A stretch of 41,685 nucleotides of DNA from contig PVWI01000011.1 in the NCBI GenBank assembly GCA_003003725.1, positions 1-41,685 of the forward strand, written 5' to 3'. This DNA comes from a filamentous cyanobacterium Phorm 6 (GTDB lineage Bacteria > Cyanobacteriota > Cyanobacteriia > Cyanobacteriales > Microcoleaceae). Under the pieces are notes generated by a model. It was not told the origin of the DNA, searched no databases, and saw only the letters and a list, made by a program, of their open reading frames with translations. A program made the position numbers and the translations under genes. Positions 5,211 to 36,686 of this stretch are shown here, piece by piece (position 1 is the stretch's first letter; every line of letters begins with the position of its first letter).

Positions 5211-5664
5211 CAGTATATTCCAAAATCGTATAAAAATGCTCCCGAATTTCATGGGATAATCCCCTAGACCAATTTCTACGCAATTCGTCTTCTCTATCCA
5301 TTGCTTCATCGGGAGCGAGGTCTGTTAAGATGATTGAGAGAACCAGATGAACATAGTTAGGAATTTCGGGGTCATTGATGACTTGAAGTAATAGTCTTTG
5401 TTCGGGGAAATAATTGCTAATTTGAACGGGTGCTTCTAGCACAACGGGAAGTAAAAACGGATATTTGTTAATAAATTCAATAACTTCTGTTTTGTCTCGG
5501 AAAATGTATGCTTTTTCTATGGTTTCGATGTCTGATTGGGAAATGAGGAAAGGCGCGACACTTGGTGCTGATATTTTTTGTAAAATTAAGGATGCTATGG
5601 CATTTTGTTCGGCTTCTGGTAGTTGAGAGACGGTGGCAAAAGTTTCTGCTAATAGGTTATTCAT
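5200..5664 (-). CDS. Putative antitoxin-like partner of the HEPN protein
   Basis: A 154-residue protein in two parts. Residues 1-31 (with LPEAEQNAIASLIL) resemble the short helical segment found in many cyanobacterial antitoxin-like proteins. Residues ~50-145 form a domain with FINKYPFLLPVVLEA followed by strands and an acidic DEAMDREDEL segment. I recall similar domains in cyanobacterial hypotheticals but know no function. It precedes and overlaps the HEPN gene, and a promoter-like sequence lies about 50 bases upstream. The two-gene layout with the non-HEPN gene first fits a toxin-antitoxin or small defence module. The antitoxin role is inferred from context only. Confidence 0.65.
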   Translation of the reverse strand: MNNLLAETFATVSQLPEAEQNAIASLILQKISAPSVAPFLISQSDIETIEKAYIFRDKTEVIEFINKYPFLLPVVLEAPVQISNYFPEQRLLLQVINDPEIPNYVHLVLSIILTDLAPDEAMDREDELRRNWSRGLSHEIREHFYTILEYTDEF

Positions 5665-5712
5665 TTTATAAATCTCCTATGGGACTATTCGTGATAAAAA
5701 TCAATATTTCTA

Positions 5713-5741
5713 ATTATAATCTGTTCGGCGGTGAATCTGAA
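5713..5741 (-). promoter_or_regulatory. Possible promoter of the HEPN module
   Basis: On the minus strand a perfect -10 TATAAT lies 17 bases downstream of TTCAGA (4 of 6 matches to the -35 consensus). It is about 46 bases before the first start codon of the module. It is judged by motif only. Confidence 0.4.
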
Positions 5742-5890
5742 AAAAAAATAGTTTACTACGCTGGAACCCATCCTAAATCAGCACCAACTCCTCCGTAAAT
5801 AAACCAGACTATTTCAGCAGACTTGTCTATACAGAAAGCATTGACACAATGACAGTGATTTTCCAAAACAGAACTTACGCACAGGTGGCC

Positions 5891-5955
5891 AGAAACCGGG
5901 TTTTTTGCGATATCCTTTGCTGTACTCCACAGATTAAGTAAAAAACCCGGTTTCT
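5891..5955. repeat. Long hairpin of the AGAAACCGGGTTT family
   Basis: A perfect 16-base inverted repeat, AGAAACCGGGTTTTTT and its complement, separated by 33 bases. Related sequences occur at 23940-24005 and in weaker form near 36802-36872. It could also end transcripts arriving from either side. The rest of the 418-base gap shows nothing else I can name. Confidence 0.65.
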
Positions 5956-6082
5956 TTGTCGGGAGTGCATCCAGGAGTGCCAAAAACAAATCGAGTCACC
6001 TCTGGCGACCAAAAAAGTGAAAAAGAAAAAAGAGTAAAGAGCAAAAGGGCAAAATAGCAAAGAAGAGTCCTCGCCGGGAAAA

Positions 6083-7852
6083 CTAGGACGAGGAAGAAAC
6101 CGAAGCCACCGCTACGCGAAAACCCCTGCCCCACCACCTGATGACCGCCGAGACGTAGAGACGATCGGCACTGCGGCAATAGACCGCATTGTTGACCCAG
6201 GAACCACCACGCTGCACCCGGTTTTTACTATCTCCACCACTTTCCCAGGCACTTCCGTCAATCGGCGCACCGTTATAATTATCGTGGTAAATATCTTGAC
6301 ACCATTCCCAGACATTCCCGTGCATATCATAAAGTCCAAAGCTATTGGGCGGAAAACTACCCACAGCAGTTGTTGTTTCACGATAGATTCCCTTCGGTGC
6401 AGTACCGTAGGGATAATTGCCGTTATAATTAACTAAATCCGGGGTAACTGTGTCCCCAAAATGAAATGGAGTAGTTGTCCCAGCCCGACAAGCATATTCC
6501 CATTCCGCCTCACTAGGAAGGCGATAGCTTCTACCCGTCTTCTGAGACAATCTCACACAAAATTCAACAGCATCATTCCAAGAAACGTTTTCTATAGGAA
6601 GGTTTTTACCCTTGAAGTGAGAAGGGTCGGGTTTAAGGTCATACTGAATTTTGGGCAATTTAGCTACTGCTGCCCACTGTGCTTGATTAATCGGGTATTT
6701 CCCCAGCAGAAACGGTTTGATTGTCACCTGATGTTGAGGTCTTTCAAAGTAATAGCTTTTTGCTTCACTTGCAGGTGCACCCATTGTGAAGCTGCCTTTG
6801 GGGATAGAAACCATTTCTAAAGTAATGTCCTTGACGATAGTTTCTGTAAAAACCTGTGCTTGACTTTGGCTGCGCTTGATGATTTGCCCCTTTGAATTCA
6901 CTGTCACCGTTTCAAATTGAACTGTTTTTAGGGAATTTGACGATATTTTTACAGGTTGAGGCGATTTGTTCCCCAAACTTTGATACACAGTTGGTGTTGG
7001 TGGTGGTGTCGGTGGTGGTGGTGTAGGAGGCGGCGACAAAGATAAAATTGCTTGCAATGCTTGCTCTGCATTTTGATAGCGCTGACTGAAATGGTCGCGC
7101 ACCATTTTATCTAGCACATTTGCTAAATTATTACTAACTTGCGCTTGATTTCGCCAAATAACTTCTCCCGTCTGCGGATCTTCTGGTAAGGTATAAGGAG
7201 CTTGACCAGTCAATGCTTGAATCCCAATCATCCCCACTGCATAAATATCGCTACACGGTTTAGGTTTGCCGTTCGCTTGTTCGCTGGGCATATAACCCGA
7301 AGTACCAATGCCAACGGTGAAGCTAGTTTGTCCTTGAGCATTAACAATCATTGTGCTAATTTCCTTGACCGCTCCGAAATCAATCAAGATAATTTTACCA
7401 TCTTGGCGGCGCATTAAATTAGCAGGTTTTAAGTCGCGATGAATCACATTTTGCTGATGAACAATGGCTAAAACTTCTAATATCTCGTGCAATAATTTAA
7501 TAGTATGGGATTCGCTTGATTTTTTACCGAGAATCAGTTCTTTGGTAAGGTCATGTCCTTCGATAAAATCTTGCACCAAATAAAATTCGCCATTTTCCTC
7601 AAAGTGGGCGGAAAGGCTGGGGATTTGGTCGTGTAGCTTACCCAATTTATACAGGGTTTCGGCTTCTTTGTCGAAGAAGCCTTTGGCAATTAGTAAGTCG
7701 GCGGGTTTTAGGCTTTTCGGTTTAAGATGTTTGACAACGCACTGGGGATGTCCGGGTAAGTCTAAATCTTTGCCAAGGTAGGTGTCGCCAAAAGCGCCTT
7801 GTCCCAAGAATTCGATAATTTGATAATGATTGCGGAGGGTACAACCCAGCAT
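6083..7852 (-). CDS. Ser/Thr protein kinase fused to a FGE-sulfatase (SUMF1-like) domain
   Basis: Residues 10-270 are a Hanks-type kinase: glycine loop LGQGAFG (16-22), Lys41, HRDLKPAN (138-145) and DFG (158-160). All catalytic residues are present, so it is probably active. A proline/threonine-rich linker (273-288) leads to an FGE/SUMF1-type domain (about 345-583) with RLPSEAEWEYACRAG, NVWEWCQD and RVQRGGSW. In true formylglycine-generating enzymes the last motif carries two copper-binding cysteines. Here the second is kept (Cys559) but the first aligns with Asn554, so classic sulfatase activation is unlikely. The domain may instead bind a ligand or act as a different non-haem iron/lectin-like module. 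No transmembrane helix is seen. The fusion suggests signalling in which the C-terminal domain is sensor or effector. Confidence 0.9.
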   Translation of the reverse strand: MLGCTLRNHYQIIEFLGQGAFGDTYLGKDLDLPGHPQCVVKHLKPKSLKPADLLIAKGFFDKEAETLYKLGKLHDQIPSLSAHFEENGEFYLVQDFIEGHDLTKELILGKKSSESHTIKLLHEILEVLAIVHQQNVIHRDLKPANLMRRQDGKIILIDFGAVKEISTMIVNAQGQTSFTVGIGTSGYMPSEQANGKPKPCSDIYAVGMIGIQALTGQAPYTLPEDPQTGEVIWRNQAQVSNNLANVLDKMVRDHFSQRYQNAEQALQAILSLSPPPTPPPPTPPPTPTVYQSLGNKSPQPVKISSNSLKTVQFETVTVNSKGQIIKRSQSQAQVFTETIVKDITLEMVSIPKGSFTMGAPASEAKSYYFERPQHQVTIKPFLLGKYPINQAQWAAVAKLPKIQYDLKPDPSHFKGKNLPIENVSWNDAVEFCVRLSQKTGRSYRLPSEAEWEYACRAGTTTPFHFGDTVTPDLVNYNGNYPYGTAPKGIYRETTTAVGSFPPNSFGLYDMHGNVWEWCQDIYHDNYNGAPIDGSAWESGGDSKNRVQRGGSWVNNAVYCRSADRLYVSAVIRWWGRGFRVAVASVSSSS

Positions 7853-30655: not shown

Positions 30656-31003
30656 TTATAAAGGCAAGTATTGCACGCGATTAGCAAAATCTTTTGGATG
30701 CCCAACTTTAGCGATTATTTCCAAGTCGCGCACGCAATCTCCAATCGAGACTCGCCTTTGACGGGCATAGATAACACCCGGAAAGTTGATCCCTTCACCC
30801 TGACGCCGTTTTGCTTCCGCTAGAAAGTCTTGATCTTCTGAAAATACAAGTCGCTGAAGTTCAATGGCGCGATCGAATACAGCGGGATCTGGAAAACTAG
30901 CAAGTCCATCTTCTTGCACTGTCAAAACATCTACATCCCGCAAACGCAATCCTTCTGTAATTTGTATGGGGATGTTCTCGTCCATATAAAGGGATAGACT
31001 CAT
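30656..31003 (-). CDS. DUF5615 PIN-like protein, probable toxin
   Basis: A 115-residue PIN-like protein. The acidic motif YMDENIPI (6-13) and FSEDQDFL supply conserved acids typical of the DUF5615/Mut7-C-like nuclease fold. Such genes regularly follow a DUF433 gene, and the pair is considered a type II toxin-antitoxin system. Its ATG overlaps the DUF433 stop by four bases. An RNase role is likely by family but not shown here. Confidence 0.85.
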   Translation of the reverse strand: MSLSLYMDENIPIQITEGLRLRDVDVLTVQEDGLASFPDPAVFDRAIELQRLVFSEDQDFLAEAKRRQGEGINFPGVIYARQRRVSIGDCVRDLEIIAKVGHPKDFANRVQYLPL

Positions 31004-31317
31004 TTCAATAGCCCTTGATCGCGCATTCTAGCAGCAAAAGGAGATTCGCCAGCTTCTTGTTCTAAGTGTTTTACATATTTCTCTCGCCGTTCAATATCTG
31101 CATCTATTTCTTGTTGATTGTCCAAGTAGTAAGCTAATGCTGAGTAAATTTTGCTCAGGGTAAGGTGAGGGTAACTTTGTAGCAATTCTTCAGGAGTCCA
31201 ACCGTAAGCTTTCACAGAGGTAAGCAACTCTACGATTTTCATCGATGTCCCTTCAATGATGGGGATATTGCGATCATCTAGTTGCACATATTTATATTCA
31301 GTGGCTGTGATTGTCAT
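31000..31317 (-). CDS. DUF433 protein, probable antitoxin
   Basis: A 105-residue DUF433 protein. It has an N-terminal beta part (YVQLDDRNIPIIEGTSMKI) and a helix-turn-helix-like stretch (GWTPEELLQSYPHLTLSKIY, 39-58). DUF433 proteins are the usual antitoxin-like partners of DUF5615 proteins and may repress their own operon. It comes first and overlaps the toxin gene. Confidence 0.87.
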   Translation of the reverse strand: MTITATEYKYVQLDDRNIPIIEGTSMKIVELLTSVKAYGWTPEELLQSYPHLTLSKIYSALAYYLDNQQEIDADIERREKYVKHLEQEAGESPFAARMRDQGLLK

Positions 31318-31601: not shown

Positions 31602-33716
31602 ATGACTGACTCAATTCGCTTCCTGATGTGCGCTCCCGACCACTACGATGTCGATTACGTGATTAACCCTTGGATGGAGGGTAACGTCCACAAATCATCG
31701 CGCGATCGCGCTGTCGAACAGTGGGAAAAACTCTACCACGTCCTCAAAGACAACGCCGTTGTAGACCTCGTACCGCCCGAAAAAGGCTGGCCGGATATGG
31801 TGTTCACCGCCAACGCAGGTTTGCTTTTGGGCAATACTTTCGTCCTCAGCCGTTTCTATCACAAAGAACGCCAAGGCGAAGAACCCTATTTCAAAGCATG
31901 GTTTGAAAGCAAAGGTTTCACCGTGCACGAACTGCCCGAAGACTTGCCCTTTGAAGGTGCTGGTGATGCTTTGCTCGATCGCGAAGGACGCTGGTTGTGG
32001 GCCGGATACGGCTTCCGTTCCGAACTCGACTCGCACCCATTACTAGCAACATGGCTGAACATAGAAGTGCTATCGCTGCGTTTAGTAGACGAACGTTTCT
32101 ATCACTTAGACACCTGTTTTTGTCCGCTCACAGGTGGCTATTTGCTCTACTATCCAGCAGCATTTGACTCCTATTCAAACCGCCTAATTGAAATGCGAGT
32201 TGCGCCGGAAAAACGCATTGCCATTGAAGAAGCAGATGCCGCAAATTTTGCTTGCAATGCTGTCAATATTGACCAAGTTGTGGTAATGAACAAGGTCAGC
32301 GAAGGCTTGAAAACGCGCATCACTCAAGCCGGCTTCAAAGTCATTGAAACGCCGATGAGCGAATTTCTGAAAGCGGGCGGCGCCTGTAAGTGTTTGACGC
32401 TGCGGGTGAATGAACCGGTGCAAGAAGATCGATCGGCAAACGTGATGGTAGAAAGCCGCACAATCCGCATGGCCGGCCACTTGCTCGATGCGGGTTTAAT
32501 CAGTCGCGCTTTAGACTTAATCATCGAAAACGGCGGCAGTTTCCAAGTGCTGAATTTCAATTTAGGAGAGCAGCGCCAAAGCACATCATCTGCGGATGTT
32601 AAAGTTTCGGCACCTTCCCACGATGTGATGGAAGAAATCATGGGATTGCTGATTGATTTGGGTGCAGTTCCACCACCGGAAGATATTTGCGACGCTATTT
32701 TAGAAGATGTAGTGCAGGATGGAGTCGGCCCGGATGACTTTTATGTTAGTACGATTTATCCCACGGAAGTGCGGGTAAGTGGCCAGTGGGTGAAGGCGCG
32801 AAATCAGCGGATGGACGGTGCAGTTGCGATTACTGAAACCGCAGAAGGCCCGGTGGCTACGTGCAAATTATTGCGCGATTTAAAAATAGGTGAAAAAGTC
32901 GTTGTGGATGTTGTCGGTATTCGCACGATTCGCAAAACAGAATCGCGAGAACAGCGTAATGCTCAAGAATTCAGCTTTATGTCTGGTAGCGTTTCTAGTG
33001 AGCGCCGGGTAGAGTTGGTAGTGGAACAAGTAGCGTGGGAATTGCGCCAAATTCGCGATCGGGGTGGTAAAGTTGTAGTGACGGCGGGGCCTGTGGTAAT
33101 CCACACCGGCGGCGGCGAACATTTAGCGCATTTGATTCGCGAAGGTTATGTGCAAGCATTGTTAGGTGGAAATGCGATCGCAGTTCACGACATGGAACAA
33201 TCGAGCATGGGAACTTCTTTGGGAGTTGACATGAAACGCGGCGTTGCTGTACGCGGCGGACACCGCCACCACTTGAAAATGATTAACACCACGCGGCGTT
33301 ATGGAAGTATTGCTAAAGTCGTTGAAGCAGGCGTGATTACCAGCGGTGTGATGTACGAATGTGTGAAGCACAATATACCGTTTTCGCTAGCAGGTTCGAT
33401 CCGCGATGACGGGCCGCTTCCCGACACGCAAATGGATATGGTTAAGGCTCAAGAAGAGTATACTGAGCTGTTACGGGGCGCGGATATGGTGTTAATGCTG
33501 TCGTCTATGCTGCACTCGATCGGTGTGGGAAATATGACTCCGGCGGGTGTGAAGATGGTCTGTGTGGACATTAATCCGGCTGTGGTGACTAAATTGAGCG
33601 ATCGGGGGTCGATCGAATCTACGGGAGTTGTCACTGATGTGGGATTGTTCCTGAGTTTGTTGGTTAATCAATTGGATAAGTTGACTAGCCGCCATCATGT
33701 AACTCAATCTGTTTAG
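31602..33716 (+). CDS. argZ: Bifunctional arginine dihydrolase / ornithine cyclodeaminase (ArgZ/AgrE)
   Basis: A 704-residue cyanobacterial enzyme. The N-terminal half (about 1-280) is an amidinotransferase-fold arginine dihydrolase that turns arginine into ornithine, CO2 and ammonia. The catalytic residues match what I recall for Synechocystis ArgZ: Asn71, His168 and Cys264 in GGACKCL. The C-terminal half belongs to the LOR/SDH-type family and has ornithine cyclodeaminase activity, giving proline, in the Anabaena homologue AgrE. Its length is normal for the fused enzyme, and no break is seen. The enzyme drives the ornithine-ammonia cycle and cyanophycin use. It stands alone, with an NtcA-box-like sequence near the start. 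Confidence 0.95.
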   Translation: MTDSIRFLMCAPDHYDVDYVINPWMEGNVHKSSRDRAVEQWEKLYHVLKDNAVVDLVPPEKGWPDMVFTANAGLLLGNTFVLSRFYHKERQGEEPYFKAWFESKGFTVHELPEDLPFEGAGDALLDREGRWLWAGYGFRSELDSHPLLATWLNIEVLSLRLVDERFYHLDTCFCPLTGGYLLYYPAAFDSYSNRLIEMRVAPEKRIAIEEADAANFACNAVNIDQVVVMNKVSEGLKTRITQAGFKVIETPMSEFLKAGGACKCLTLRVNEPVQEDRSANVMVESRTIRMAGHLLDAGLISRALDLIIENGGSFQVLNFNLGEQRQSTSSADVKVSAPSHDVMEEIMGLLIDLGAVPPPEDICDAILEDVVQDGVGPDDFYVSTIYPTEVRVSGQWVKARNQRMDGAVAITETAEGPVATCKLLRDLKIGEKVVVDVVGIRTIRKTESREQRNAQEFSFMSGSVSSERRVELVVEQVAWELRQIRDRGGKVVVTAGPVVIHTGGGEHLAHLIREGYVQALLGGNAIAVHDMEQSSMGTSLGVDMKRGVAVRGGHRHHLKMINTTRRYGSIAKVVEAGVITSGVMYECVKHNIPFSLAGSIRDDGPLPDTQMDMVKAQEEYTELLRGADMVLMLSSMLHSIGVGNMTPAGVKMVCVDINPAVVTKLSDRGSIESTGVVTDVGLFLSLLVNQLDKLTSRHHVTQSV

Positions 33717-33750
33717 ATTTAGCTAGTAGACATCTCCCATAATTATTGTG

Positions 33751-33771
33751 GAACAGGCATCCTGCCTGTTC
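33751..33771. repeat. Hairpin after argZ/agrE
   Basis: GAACAGGCA, a 3-base loop, then TGCCTGTTC. It belongs to the same palindrome family as 19366-19540 and may serve as terminator, though no T-run follows. Confidence 0.6.
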
Positions 33772-33797
33772 AAGACAGGCAATTCTTGCGATGTCTA

Positions 33798-33926
33798 GTA
33801 GGGTGCGTCAGATTTGAGATTTTCAAGTTGTACGGAAAGCATATTTCTGACGCACCGTTTGGCGAGGTGCGTCAGTTTTGAGATTGTTGATTTGCATCGG
33901 AAATAATCTTACCTGACGCACCCTAC
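33798..33926. repeat. Double GTGCGTCAG palindromic repeat
   Basis: Two related ~60-base hairpin units lie in tandem. The outer arms GTAGGGTGCGTCAG and its complement are identical over 14 bases. The right end abuts the broken MarR gene exactly where its homology stops. Confidence 0.75.
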
Positions 33927-34219
33927 ATTAACTGAAGCTTTGGTAATTGTCAGCTTTTCTGCTACTTCGGTAATGGTCGGTTGTTGGAGTTGATGAATTG
34001 CATCAATGTACTGAAATTGGCTAATAGTTAGCTGTGATACGCTTGCGCCTTCTTGCAGTTTTTTGAATGATGTATCAAGTGTGTTGATAAATTAGATTAA
34101 AACTTCTTCCATTAAGCCTTTTTGACTGTTGAATACAGCGATCGCCTTAACAATCATCTTTTCTAGTTTGTAAGGGGCGATCGCACTCAACGTATTTAAA
34201 GCATCAGGTTGATCTATAT
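33927..34219 (-). pseudogene. MarR-type regulator fragment
   Basis: The minus strand reads as the N-terminal part of a MarR-like winged-helix regulator (LTISQFQYIDAIHQLQQPTI, then TEVAEKLTITKASV). A TAA interrupts the frame after MEEVLI, and the sequence is cut off in the recognition helix by the neighbouring repeat. The DNA-binding half and everything after it are gone. Confidence 0.7.
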
Positions 34220-34227
34220 GTTAGGTT

Positions 34228-35121
34228 TCACCCGACTTTGATCTCCCTCTTTATGCCTTTATCTTTTGCTAACTGATTTGCAAGGGCTGCTATTTCTTGC
34301 TTATAATCATCAATGGCTTGCCGTTCTATGGAATCCAGACAAATAAAAGTGGGACTACTGGACTGATTCTTCGCTTGATTCTTCGCTATATTATATATTT
34401 GGATTATTTTCGATATTGAGAATTCAATTTGCTCCAACTCTTCCCTGATATCAGGTTGATACTCCGATAGAGATTTAGCTCTTATTGACTTCCCATAAAT
34501 TTTTCCATTATGGATGACCTCCTTAATCTCTTTCAGTCCAACTACCATATCGCTATAGTTCCCCTCACTGCGAGTCAAATCTCGGACAGCACTTCTATCA
34601 ATTACTCCTAGCACAATTCCGAGACACGTATTGTCATCAATAGGATTCAAGAGATGCAAAGGAATCTCTCTCTGCAATATATCATTTACTTTTTGAAGTG
34701 TTTCATAGTTAGAACTCTTTATTTTGTCCAGTAGATATTCGATCCCAACAATTTTAGCCAAAGGACAAGGAGATTTAGCATTTGTTTTCTTGATGAACCC
34801 CAAGATAATGAGTTTTTTGTAAGCCATACTATGTTTTTCGTACATTTTGAGTGTATGCTTCACTTTAGTCATACTAGCATCAGTGGTTACCTGTATTGCA
34901 ATACCTTGTTTTTGATCTAATAAATCAATCGCTGGATGGTTATGCTTAATTGTGTTCACGTTCACGTAGTCTGCATTTTCCAGAACATTGAGTAAGTCCT
35001 TCACAACTACCTCAATTTGAAATGACAGGTCACCAAAAGACTGCTTCACAAAATTTTCAATATGACGTTGTAAAAACGTGAGTCTTGTTATTGCATTTTT
35101 TATCTCTTCTTGTGTAGACAT
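34228..35121 (-). CDS. SMEK-domain-like protein, possible defence nuclease
   Basis: A 297-residue protein. The N-terminal ~130 residues have a restriction-endonuclease-like look: helix, then NHPAIDLLDQKQGIAIQVTT (63-82), with Asp68 and the strand IAIQVT, then a lysine-rich helix. This pattern (PAIDL ... QVT) is what I associate with the SMEK domain of bacterial defence-type proteins; the assignment is from memory. The C-terminal half is helical with no motif I know. I chose the ATG with GAAGGAAG upstream; a GTG two codons earlier also exists, hence residue numbers are given from the GTG. It is an orphan flanked by a decayed MarR gene and a MITE, in DNA that looks AT-richer than its neighbours. 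Confidence 0.65.
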   Translation of the reverse strand: MSTQEEIKNAITRLTFLQRHIENFVKQSFGDLSFQIEVVVKDLLNVLENADYVNVNTIKHNHPAIDLLDQKQGIAIQVTTDASMTKVKHTLKMYEKHSMAYKKLIILGFIKKTNAKSPCPLAKIVGIEYLLDKIKSSNYETLQKVNDILQREIPLHLLNPIDDNTCLGIVLGVIDRSAVRDLTRSEGNYSDMVVGLKEIKEVIHNGKIYGKSIRAKSLSEYQPDIREELEQIEFSISKIIQIYNIAKNQAKNQSSSPTFICLDSIERQAIDDYKQEIAALANQLAKDKGIKREIKVG

Positions 35122-35158
35122 TTGCACTTCCTTCGTTTTGTAAACCCAGCCTATGATT

Positions 35159-35333
35159 CAATACTCCGGACAGTTTTTGGAACGATACTACAAGCTTTAC
35201 AGGGCAAGGAGCATAAAAAAGTCGAATTAAATGTAAGTCAGGGGTAGAGCTGACATTGATTTAATTATCCACAGTGGCTCAAAGTCAAGCGAGCATAAGC
35301 CATTGGGCCATATAAAAACTGTCCGGACTATTG
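35159..35333. mobile_element. 175-bp MITE with 6-bp target duplication
   Basis: Terminal inverted repeats of 20 bases (CAATACTCCGGACAGTTTTT at the left; 19 of 20 match at the right) enclose non-coding DNA. ATGATT occurs directly outside each end (35153-35158 and 35334-35339), consistent with a target-site duplication. It lies 32 bases before the SMEK-like gene's GTG and could affect its promoter. Confidence 0.75.
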
Positions 35334-35359
35334 ATGATTATTATATCGCATTTAAGCCC

Positions 35360-35524
35360 TAGGGTGTGTCGCCATCGACAACCCTTCATCAACAGCGACA
35401 ATCTCATGGCGACGCACCTGCTCTTTTCCAGAGATGAGGAAAAAAACCAACATTTTGATAAGGTGCGTCGCTACTCGAAAAGTCGATTTTTATTGACAGA
35501 TTTTTGCAAGGCGACGCACCCTAC
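35360..35524. repeat. Two GTGCGTCGC palindromic repeats
   Basis: Two hairpin units (about 35360-35419 and 35461-35524) with arms AGGTGCGTCGC / GCGACGCACCCTAC. The family also occurs at 4719 and, diverged, at 33798. The rest of this 413-base gap is the adjacent MITE. Confidence 0.7.
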
Positions 35525-35540
35525 GGCTACAGCTTTGAGG

Positions 35541-36686
35541 TTAGGATGGGAGCCTATCCTCGATCGCAATATAAGGCTCACCATGAGTACCCGTATAGAT
35601 TTGAGTCGGGCGATAAATGCGGTTTGTCTCTAGCTGTTCCTTCCAGTGAGCTAGCCAACCGGCAACCCGGGCGATCGCAAAAACCGGCGTAAACAAATCG
35701 ATCGGAATTCCCATTTTCCGGTAAACCAGACCCGAATAAAAATCTACATTAGCATAAATTCCTTTCTGCCCCAATTTCTCCTCAACCACTTCTTCCAACT
35801 TGACAGCAATGTCGTAATAATCGTCGTGTCCGAAGTTTTCAAACAACTGTTCCGCTAACCCTTGGAGAATAGTTGCTCTCGGATCTTTCACCTTATAAAC
35901 TCGGTGTCCGAATCCCATGATTTTGTCCTTATTTGCAACGCACTTCTCCACAAAAGGCCGCACATTTTCTACCGAACCAATTTGCTCCAACATCTCAATC
36001 ACTTCTTCATTCGCTCCCCCGTGCAGAGGCCCCGCCAAAGTGCCAACTGCTGAAGCAATCACCCCGTAAGGATCTGTCAGAGTCGAAGCTGTTACCATTG
36101 CCGAAAATGTAGAAGCATTGATTGTATGTTCGGCGTGCAGAGTCAGACAAACGTCAAAAATGTTAGCCAACAGCGGATCTGGTTCTCGCTCGTTTAGCAT
36201 ATAAAGAAAGTTAGCCGAGTAGTTCAAATCATCCCTTGGCCGCACCGGATCATTTCCCCGCCGCATTTGTTGAAACGCTGCTACCATTGTCGGAATTTTG
36301 GCTAGCAGCCGCACTACAGCTTCTCGAATGTATGCTGGGTTGGCCAGAGCTCGGCGCGAGTAGAACAAACCCAAGGCCGCTGCTGAAGCTTGCAGCGCGT
36401 CCATTGGATGTCCTCTTTCAGGAAAGCATTTCATCATGTCCCGGATGCGATATTTGATCCGGCGGTGATAGCGAATTTCATGCTCGAAAGCTTCGAGTTC
36501 TTCCTTTGTTGGAAGTACGCCCCAGATTAATAAATATGAAGTTTCCACAAAGGAACTTTTTAGTGCTAGTTCCTCGATGCTAATCCCGCGATATTCTAGC
36601 ACCCCTTTTTGTCCATCGACGTAACTAATACTGGACAAGGTGGCGGGAACACCTTCTAAACCTGGTTTGAATTCGCCGACGACCAT
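35541..36686 (-). CDS. gltA: Citrate synthase
   Basis: It condenses oxaloacetate and acetyl-CoA to citrate, feeding 2-oxoglutarate for nitrogen assimilation in cyanobacteria. At 381 residues it is a short form of the family. Catalytic and substrate residues are visible: His187 in LHAEHTINAS, His222 in GPLHGGANEEV, His261 in GFGHRVYK and Asp315 in NVDFYSG. The protein looks complete. The family includes 2-methylcitrate synthases, but in cyanobacteria this single copy is normally citrate synthase. It is monocistronic. Confidence 0.96.
   Translation of the reverse strand: MVVGEFKPGLEGVPATLSSISYVDGQKGVLEYRGISIEELALKSSFVETSYLLIWGVLPTKEELEAFEHEIRYHRRIKYRIRDMMKCFPERGHPMDALQASAAALGLFYSRRALANPAYIREAVVRLLAKIPTMVAAFQQMRRGNDPVRPRDDLNYSANFLYMLNEREPDPLLANIFDVCLTLHAEHTINASTFSAMVTASTLTDPYGVIASAVGTLAGPLHGGANEEVIEMLEQIGSVENVRPFVEKCVANKDKIMGFGHRVYKVKDPRATILQGLAEQLFENFGHDDYYDIAVKLEEVVEEKLGQKGIYANVDFYSGLVYRKMGIPIDLFTPVFAIARVAGWLAHWKEQLETNRIYRPTQIYTGTHGEPYIAIEDRLPS

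Follow-up and report, generated by a model that had tools for sequence, protein, structure and literature searches.

A lone SMEK-type gene of a filamentous cyanobacterium, joining a nuclease-like domain to a helical module, as a candidate single-gene anti-phage effector

Between two metabolic genes, the filamentous cyanobacterium Phorm 6 carries a solitary gene whose product combines an N-terminal SMEK-type nuclease domain with a C-terminal four-helix module. We lean towards the view that this gene is a stand-alone, single-gene anti-phage DNase effector, which would be both restrained and triggered via its helical module. The gene lies in the window, the whole stretch of 41,685 nucleotides that was analysed (contig PVWI01000011.1, positions 1 to 41,685 of the forward strand; Table 1). 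The domain, its likely fold class, its conserved residues and the two-domain layout rest on computation, as do the recent transfer of one gene, the carriage of relatives by prophages and a plasmid, and the reuse of the module with other nuclease domains.

Table 1. Coordinates of the SMEK-type gene, its domains and the nearby elements in the window
Feature	Position	Strand	Remarks
SMEK-type gene, CDS including stop, 297 aa	34228..35121	-	SMEK-type nuclease domain and C-terminal four-helix 'DRxA...E' module
SMEK domain, restriction-endonuclease-like, residues 12-117	34771..35088	-	PF21941; putative site E37, D66, Q77, T79, K86
C-terminal four-helix module, residues ~157-297	34231..34653	-	motif DRxA...E...G at residues 175-206; predicted from model and profiles
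12-bp tandem duplication	34364..34387	.	adds 4 residues in the helical module; missing from D. circinale
Transferred unit, common to Dolichospermum circinale L002:7965-8888	34222..35157	-	92% DNA identity
MITE, 175 bp, inverted repeats 20/21 paired	35159..35333	.	independent of the gene
Target-site duplication ATGATT, gene side	35153..35158	.	
Target-site duplication ATGATT, gltA side	35334..35339	.	
MarR-like regulator remnant, 60 aa, stop codons on both sides	33912..34091	-	below the Pfam cut-off

The ORF of the SMEK-type gene is real and intact. The mechanically called frame (34228..35127, 299 aa) starts at a GTG; an ATG at 35121, with GGAAG upstream, is the likelier start and gives a protein of 297 aa, in whose numbering PAIDL occupies residues 63-67 and QVT residues 77-79. 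The span first given for the feature, 34228-35339, was right in its coding part, its end taking in a MITE and the right-hand target repeat, which are non-coding. A profile search found one SMEK gene in the genome. Its immediate neighbours, both metabolic, are what we take to be agrE (31602-33713, for which Pfam backs the ArgZ/AgrE identity) and gltA, presumably encoding the citrate synthase that we recognised by eye. The gene had been described as standing alone, and so it does, the unit that it has in common with D. circinale being a one-gene unit.

Membership of the SMEK family, which the first-pass annotation had proposed, is firm. The protein matches PF21941 in Pfam (E 8.7e-23; 81.2 bits, cut-off 27) and NF033859 in NCBIfam (E 7.7e-22; 77 bits, cut-off 30). 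No PADLOC model spans the whole protein, the sole match being to a short-Argonaute REase partner model (residues 4-128; model positions 7-130 of 463). Conservation was read from an alignment of the window protein with 51 distinct SMEK domains, taken from the collected loci at a profile E <= 1e-4 and excluding the copies of the window gene; one fragment lacks the site, which leaves 51 rows covering it, window included. D66, Q77 and K86 are each found in 51/51 of these rows, T79 in 50/51 and E37 in 49/51, the rows standing for fewer than 51 independent lineages because many are close enterobacterial relatives. The glutamine, once thought unusual, is hence the family norm. The literal D...(D/E)xK motif is absent, as Q-x-T replaces (D/E)-x-K, and from the constancy of D66, Q77 and K86 we conclude that the family signature is Q-x-T followed by a helix with a lysine. 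The PD-(D/E)XK superfamily accepts variant motifs, and K86, on the next helix, probably takes the place of the (D/E)xK lysine. That the missing (D/E)xK would mean a loss of activity was considered and rejected, Q-x-T with a downstream lysine being the rule.

The predicted nuclease fold of the SMEK domain is well supported. The full-length AlphaFold model, built from a 14-row alignment, has a pLDDT of 82.6 and a pTM of 0.52, a whole-protein value so low that the two domains may not be fixed relative to each other. The top structural row for residues 1-158 is the EcoT38I restriction endonuclease (Z 9.9, rmsd 3.7, 143 aligned), residues 32-149 align with AF1548 (Z 8.7, rmsd 2.9, 105 aligned), and EcoO109I ranks first in Foldseek (E 0.02); Foldseek gave no match at E <= 0.001 for the full-length and C-terminal models, viral library included. 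In the model the N domain has the restriction-endonuclease-like core fold of the PD-(D/E)XK superfamily, an assignment of moderate strength given the modest EcoT38I Z value and the best Foldseek E of 0.02. The earlier description of a nuclease-like domain is supported by this fold and by the closest solved sequence, PDB 26bh (E 1e-6 over residues 20-126), which bears the name Mrr domain of the Kordia jejudonensis Mrr-APAZ pAgo. The type II restriction endonucleases EcoT38I and EcoO109I resemble the window N domain in fold, whereas sequence identity is about 10%, and the window gene has no adjoining DNA methylase and an extra helical module.

SMEK nucleases are effectors of short-Argonaute systems, in which the Argonaute signals when to fire. 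The bacterial SMEK domain is named in passages of PMC10810196, PMC12205087, PMC10318531 and PMC9677677. Passages of the first two describe DNA cleavage by SMEK-APAZ with its Argonaute; according to the passage in PMC12205087, the Kordia SMEK-APAZ heterodimer with its Ago acts as a weak collateral nuclease against both dsDNA and ssDNA (the Kordia work cited there being Kim et al. 2020), and an excerpt of PMC10318531 regards a gene of this kind as a restriction endonuclease wrongly annotated as SMEK. The SMEK-APAZ protein of the K. jejudonensis SPARDA (PDB 26bh) has the same PAIDL...Q-x-T...K residues as the window protein, which differs from it in having no APAZ-type match beyond residue 128, a helical bundle as its C-terminus and no PIWI gene. 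SPARDA membership was rejected, since no APAZ follows the nuclease and no short Argonaute adjoins it, the neighbours being agrE and gltA; in the PIWI search, the genome gave no match and the control found the M. jannaschii PIWI. ABC-3C membership was rejected as well, there being no middle component or ABC ATPase ORF between agrE and gltA (33717-35540), and so was type IV Mrr membership, no Mrr_cat or reader domain appearing in Pfam at E <= 1.

It is very improbable that the window gene is the orphaned, now functionless effector of such a multi-gene system (short-Argonaute SPARDA or ABC-3C). SMEK does act as the effector in these systems: two contrast loci (L020 and L023) match the PADLOC Ago-partner model nearly full length (positions 1-461 and 1-454), and on Sphingomonas and Rhizobium plasmids (L029/L031) SMEK is followed by a small gene and then by an ATPase-type gene, an arrangement that we presume to be ABC-3C. 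In the window protein, however, the PADLOC match ends at residue 128, no PIWI was found in the genome, and the SMEK domain has a dN/dS of 0.21 (9 nonsynonymous differences over 280 sites, window against D. circinale). Moreover, the C-terminus is conserved with the enterobacterial proteins of 299 aa, so that the window gene appears complete. The related suggestion that it may be the last part of a larger system found no support, as the segment common with D. circinale comprises the gene and about 36 bp upstream, and the genome gave no PIWI match.

Residues 153-297 modelled alone yield a predicted four-helix bundle (pLDDT 85.7, pTM 0.81). The window and enterobacterial proteins have in common a conserved I-(D/N)-R-x-A, E and G at residues 174-206, for which we coined the label 'DRxA...E' in this analysis. 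The structural neighbours of the module alone are generic, designed or unrelated helical bundles at Z 8-10, values that are uninformative for helical bundles, and so no structural relative is claimed. The module goes together with SMEK in the window protein, D. circinale, C. koseri, two cyanobacteria (G181 and G508) and the enterobacterial proteins. Judging from profile and tblastn matches, it is not tied to SMEK and also sits behind HNH- or Mrr-type domains, these partners being few and some of them weakly identified (two Mrr/HNH domains fall below the Pfam cut-offs). Its profile matches L081, a cyanobacterial protein whose N-terminus is of HNH type (E down to 1.2e-16 with PADLOC endonuclease effector models; Pfam HNH_2 E 0.038, below the cut-off). 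In tblastn the module retrieved an Aliarcobacter protein (Mrr_cat_2 E 0.013, below the cut-off), an Achromobacter protein (Mrr_cat above the cut-off, 22.6 against 21) and an interrupted Bradyrhizobium frame with no Mrr match; the latter matches the PADLOC model PDC-M58A (E 1.2e-4), as does the Achromobacter protein. In the plasmid search, the C. koseri module segment matched only itself, and two other module queries reached Aliarcobacter (3 records), Bradyrhizobium (2) and Achromobacter (1; via the module of the HNH protein). The HNH- and Mrr-type proteins (L081, L083, L111) thus have the same 'DRxA...E' module behind a nuclease-type domain, with a different nuclease family in front.

How strong this link is can be read from profile comparisons. 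The set formed by the window, D. circinale and enterobacterial proteins matches the G181/G508 pair (95.5%, E 1.5e-8), and this pair matches the HNH/Mrr set (98.1%, E 8.6e-14), whereas the direct comparison of the two sets is weak (54.7%, E 1.2e-4), which makes the module link a transitive one of moderate strength. In cyanobacteria the module is rare, its profile matching 3 of the 291 class genomes (own, G181 and G302). The Aliarcobacter Mrr-type module protein (L083:3376-5381) lies two genes downstream of an annotated Shedu immune nuclease. A bolder idea, which we put forward tentatively and regard as rather doubtful, is that the 'DRxA...E' bundle is an undescribed general immunity trigger module, occurring on at least three nuclease types (SMEK, Mrr and HNH). 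It would sense one kind of infection signal and let any nuclease in front of it fire, making one-gene defences that spread as single genes between cyanobacteria and are carried among enterobacteria by prophages.

Several lines of evidence show that the window gene arrived recently, and as one gene. First, its dS between the window and D. circinale is 0.128, while the housekeeping control pdhB of the same two genomes has a pS of 0.755, beyond correction (76% DNA and 89% protein identity). Second, the DNA similarity to D. circinale is limited to 34222-35157, which is the gene and about 36 bp upstream. Third, the GC content is 36-37% in the SMEK gene and 45-52% in the flanking genes. Fourth, all 29 genus genomes match the query region and the gene is uncovered in the other 28, among the matches listed; a protein search of six listed genus members found no relative of the SMEK gene. 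The D. circinale protein, 87% identical over 297 residues, was the sole relative in a scan of genome contigs with short peptide patterns, which reaches close relatives only. Its gene is also lone, between a DUF29 gene and a gene resembling a peptidase by eye. The autonomy of the window gene is well supported.

The same gene pair gives a dN/dS of 0.71 for residues 161-297 (25.5 nonsynonymous differences over 314 sites), and the contrast with the nonsynonymous changes in SMEK has a Fisher p of about 0.01. This quicker change of the C-terminus, seen in one gene pair, fits a sensing role, and relaxed constraint fits it as well.

The MITE reported just upstream of the gene was confirmed: it is a short element with terminal inverted repeats, ATGATT repeats on both sides and several copies. 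Among the matches listed, near full-length copies were seen in 15 of the other 28 genomes of the genus, with only 74% identity in two of the 15, and the window genome holds this copy and one scrap of 22 bp. The MITE was rejected as a part of the system, as it has copies in genus genomes without an SMEK-gene match among the matches listed, and the homology of the gene to D. circinale ends about at the MITE border. Removing it in silico, with the flanks joined, extended the D. circinale alignment only slightly, from about 40 to about 48 bp, and raised the local score from 60 to 62; 214 of 500 shuffles gave a homology as good upstream of the common segment, so that the sequence displaced by the MITE is uncertain.

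The MITE begins 37 bp upstream of the ATG, roughly where a TATAAT stands in D. circinale, from which it follows that expression is possibly altered; the MITE may impair expression of the SMEK gene in the window strain. A stronger version, which is compatible with the other readings and seems to us unlikely, has the gene as a locally silenced passenger, intact and yet inactive in the window strain as the MITE severs its promoter. The clean target repeats, the position of the D. circinale TATAAT and a consensus scan of 35122-35600, in which the gene's strand showed no promoter-like site, would suit such a passenger, but scans of this kind carry little weight (3 sites in the region against 4.2 expected), a MITE can bring its own promoter, and the shuffles leave the displaced sequence uncertain.

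A decayed regulator had also been reported downstream, and it is plausible but weak. The part that stood is a MarR-like stretch on the gene's own strand (E 0.0014); its score of 18.9 bits falls short of the Pfam cut-off of 24.6. Two dispersed repeats with many copies across the genus lie at 33723-33926 (around 33723-33800 and 33798-33926). Farther off, two overlapping small genes of 115 and 105 aa (30656-31317, minus strand) resemble, as judged by eye, a DUF5615-type toxin-antitoxin pair, for which PADLOC gave no match at E <= 0.001. As for the SMEK gene, its being the unpaired toxin of a toxin-antitoxin or addiction module, with the C-terminal domain or a lost partner as antitoxin, appears quite improbable: intact retention of an unrestrained toxin gene is hardly expected, the unit common to two cyanobacteria has no second gene, and the enterobacterial neighbours are separable, one locus (L107) being without them. 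These points weigh against the features that a toxin would share, namely a probable nuclease on mobile DNA, encoded alone with a weak regulator remnant alongside.

Relatives of the window protein are carried by enterobacterial prophages. They occur in 150 of 5,426 complete E. coli genomes (2.8%), at 153 places, all chromosomal, and the five regions viewed are all prophages (in three the gene is flanked by DUF977 and hokD genes, and the remaining two represent a different prophage setting). The SMEK protein of enterobacterial prophages (299 aa; for instance WP_000566846 from E. coli 55989) is like the window protein in length and two-domain layout, at 31-33% identity. With an alignment as the query, 26 loci encoding relatives were found in IMG/VR, of which 18 are full-length of the window-protein type and a further one is in two frames (L106:3986-4884, where the prophage SMEK gene breaks past the nuclease core); the single window protein as the query found no relative in the viral contigs. 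The phage collection yielded two records of one Klebsiella phage, with the N domain only, at the record end, and the window protein matched no PHROGs family (E <= 0.01). Another relative lies on a conjugative C. koseri plasmid. One viral contig bears two adjacent SMEK-domain genes (L110:3914-4978 and 5550-6647; 354 and 365 aa).

The enterobacterial SMEK gene is usually accompanied by convergent genes for a methyltransferase and a membrane-protein-like product, whereas the window and D. circinale copies are lone. This pair adjoins the SMEK gene in all five E. coli regions, on the C. koseri plasmid and in 15 of 19 viral contigs. Of the others, L107 shows no such pair over 3.8 kb downstream; L089 parts from the common sequence immediately ahead of the methyltransferase, after which the contig stops; and the L088 and L095 contigs stop at the SMEK gene itself. 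The pair is thus usual in enterobacteria but separable, L107 being without it, and its usual presence makes single-gene action in enterobacteria uncertain. The SMEK, methyltransferase and membrane-like genes possibly form a three-gene prophage cassette. At L094:5203-6573 and its equivalents, the pair consists of a small class I methyltransferase and a membrane-like protein of 235 aa, convergent, the latter having no Pfam match at E <= 0.001. In L107 (3986-6366), the SMEK gene stands amid prophage tail genes, beside a gene resembling DUF4062.

These neighbours bear on a further explanation, in which the protein is a type IV-like or sequence-specific restriction enzyme, whose helices would read a DNA feature (modification or structure) and whose SMEK domain would cut the invading DNA, with survival of the host. 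We hold it to be fairly unlikely. It draws on the nearest folds being EcoT38I and AF1548, on the Mrr-type domain in front of the same module in Achromobacter and on the methyltransferase beside most enterobacterial copies. However, the families that this methyltransferase resembles are Methyltransf_12, Methyltransf_23 and TehB instead of DNA methylases, and it has no relative in the window or in the D. circinale locus (L002); furthermore, the C-terminal module is a plain four-helix bundle, in which no known DNA-reader domain was found in Pfam (E <= 1).

Among cyanobacteria, an SMEK match was found in 23 of 388 class genomes, own included, and extends past residue 200 only in the own genome, G181 and G508. 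With the C. koseri protein as the query, 7 of 98 phylum genomes match, and most of its length is matched only in the own gene and G181. Other cyanobacterial SMEK domains lie in open frames of 913-1557 aa (L004, L009, L012, L013, L015-L017 and L024), with a NACHT-type NTPase behind the SMEK domain in L009.

We also compared the site of the gene, the agrE-gltA interval (33717-35540 in the window), with 20 sister regions, 17 of which have both flanks (L052-L068). These 17 intervals vary in size (0.4-6.6 kb) and content. Septu is present in one of them (PtuA, E 3.5e-135; PtuB, E 1.1e-64), and a BsuBI/PstI restriction enzyme plus its methylase in another. Five more contain a large sacsin-type ORF, which in L055 matches PADLOC TmtA at 3.7e-214 and in the other four was called alike from the translations. 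In the other ten, L066 is nearly empty (395 bp), and L054, L056, L057, L059-L061, L064, L065 and L068 have by eye DUF29-like, TPR-like, repeat-rich or large ORFs. With a defence-type gene in 7 of the 17 intervals, the window gene lies in a defence-prone site.

Phage defence is suggested by this context and by the prophages and the plasmid that carry relatives, and a brake and trigger in the helical module appears the likeliest of several mechanisms. Shedu (SduA) and similar one-gene nuclease defences resemble it in joining a nuclease and a regulatory domain in a single polypeptide; the PADLOC SduA models gave no match to the window protein. Catalysis, the role of the lysine, autoinhibition, the trigger and phage defence are steps that we infer, as follows. 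Residues ~1-155 would act as a restriction-endonuclease-like SMEK nuclease, in which D66...Q77-x-T79 stands for D...(D/E)xK and the metal-site lysine is probably K86, and the four-helix module (residues ~157-297) would keep this nuclease off. An infection signal would meet the helical module and the nuclease would be released; once active, it would cleave DNA and thereby halt the growth of the phage, probably at a cost to the cell. In open-licence PMC, we found no description of a stand-alone protein with SMEK and the helical module, nor any paper combining 'SMEK' with 'prophage', and the word SMEK is absent from PMC7159879.

The SMEK domain occurs here without a partner; the helical module fused to it is compact and recurs in other nuclease-type proteins. 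If this module is the trigger, the protein would be a small, self-contained DNase switch, an idea that can be tested in laboratory strains at once, thanks to the E. coli genomes that encode its relatives.
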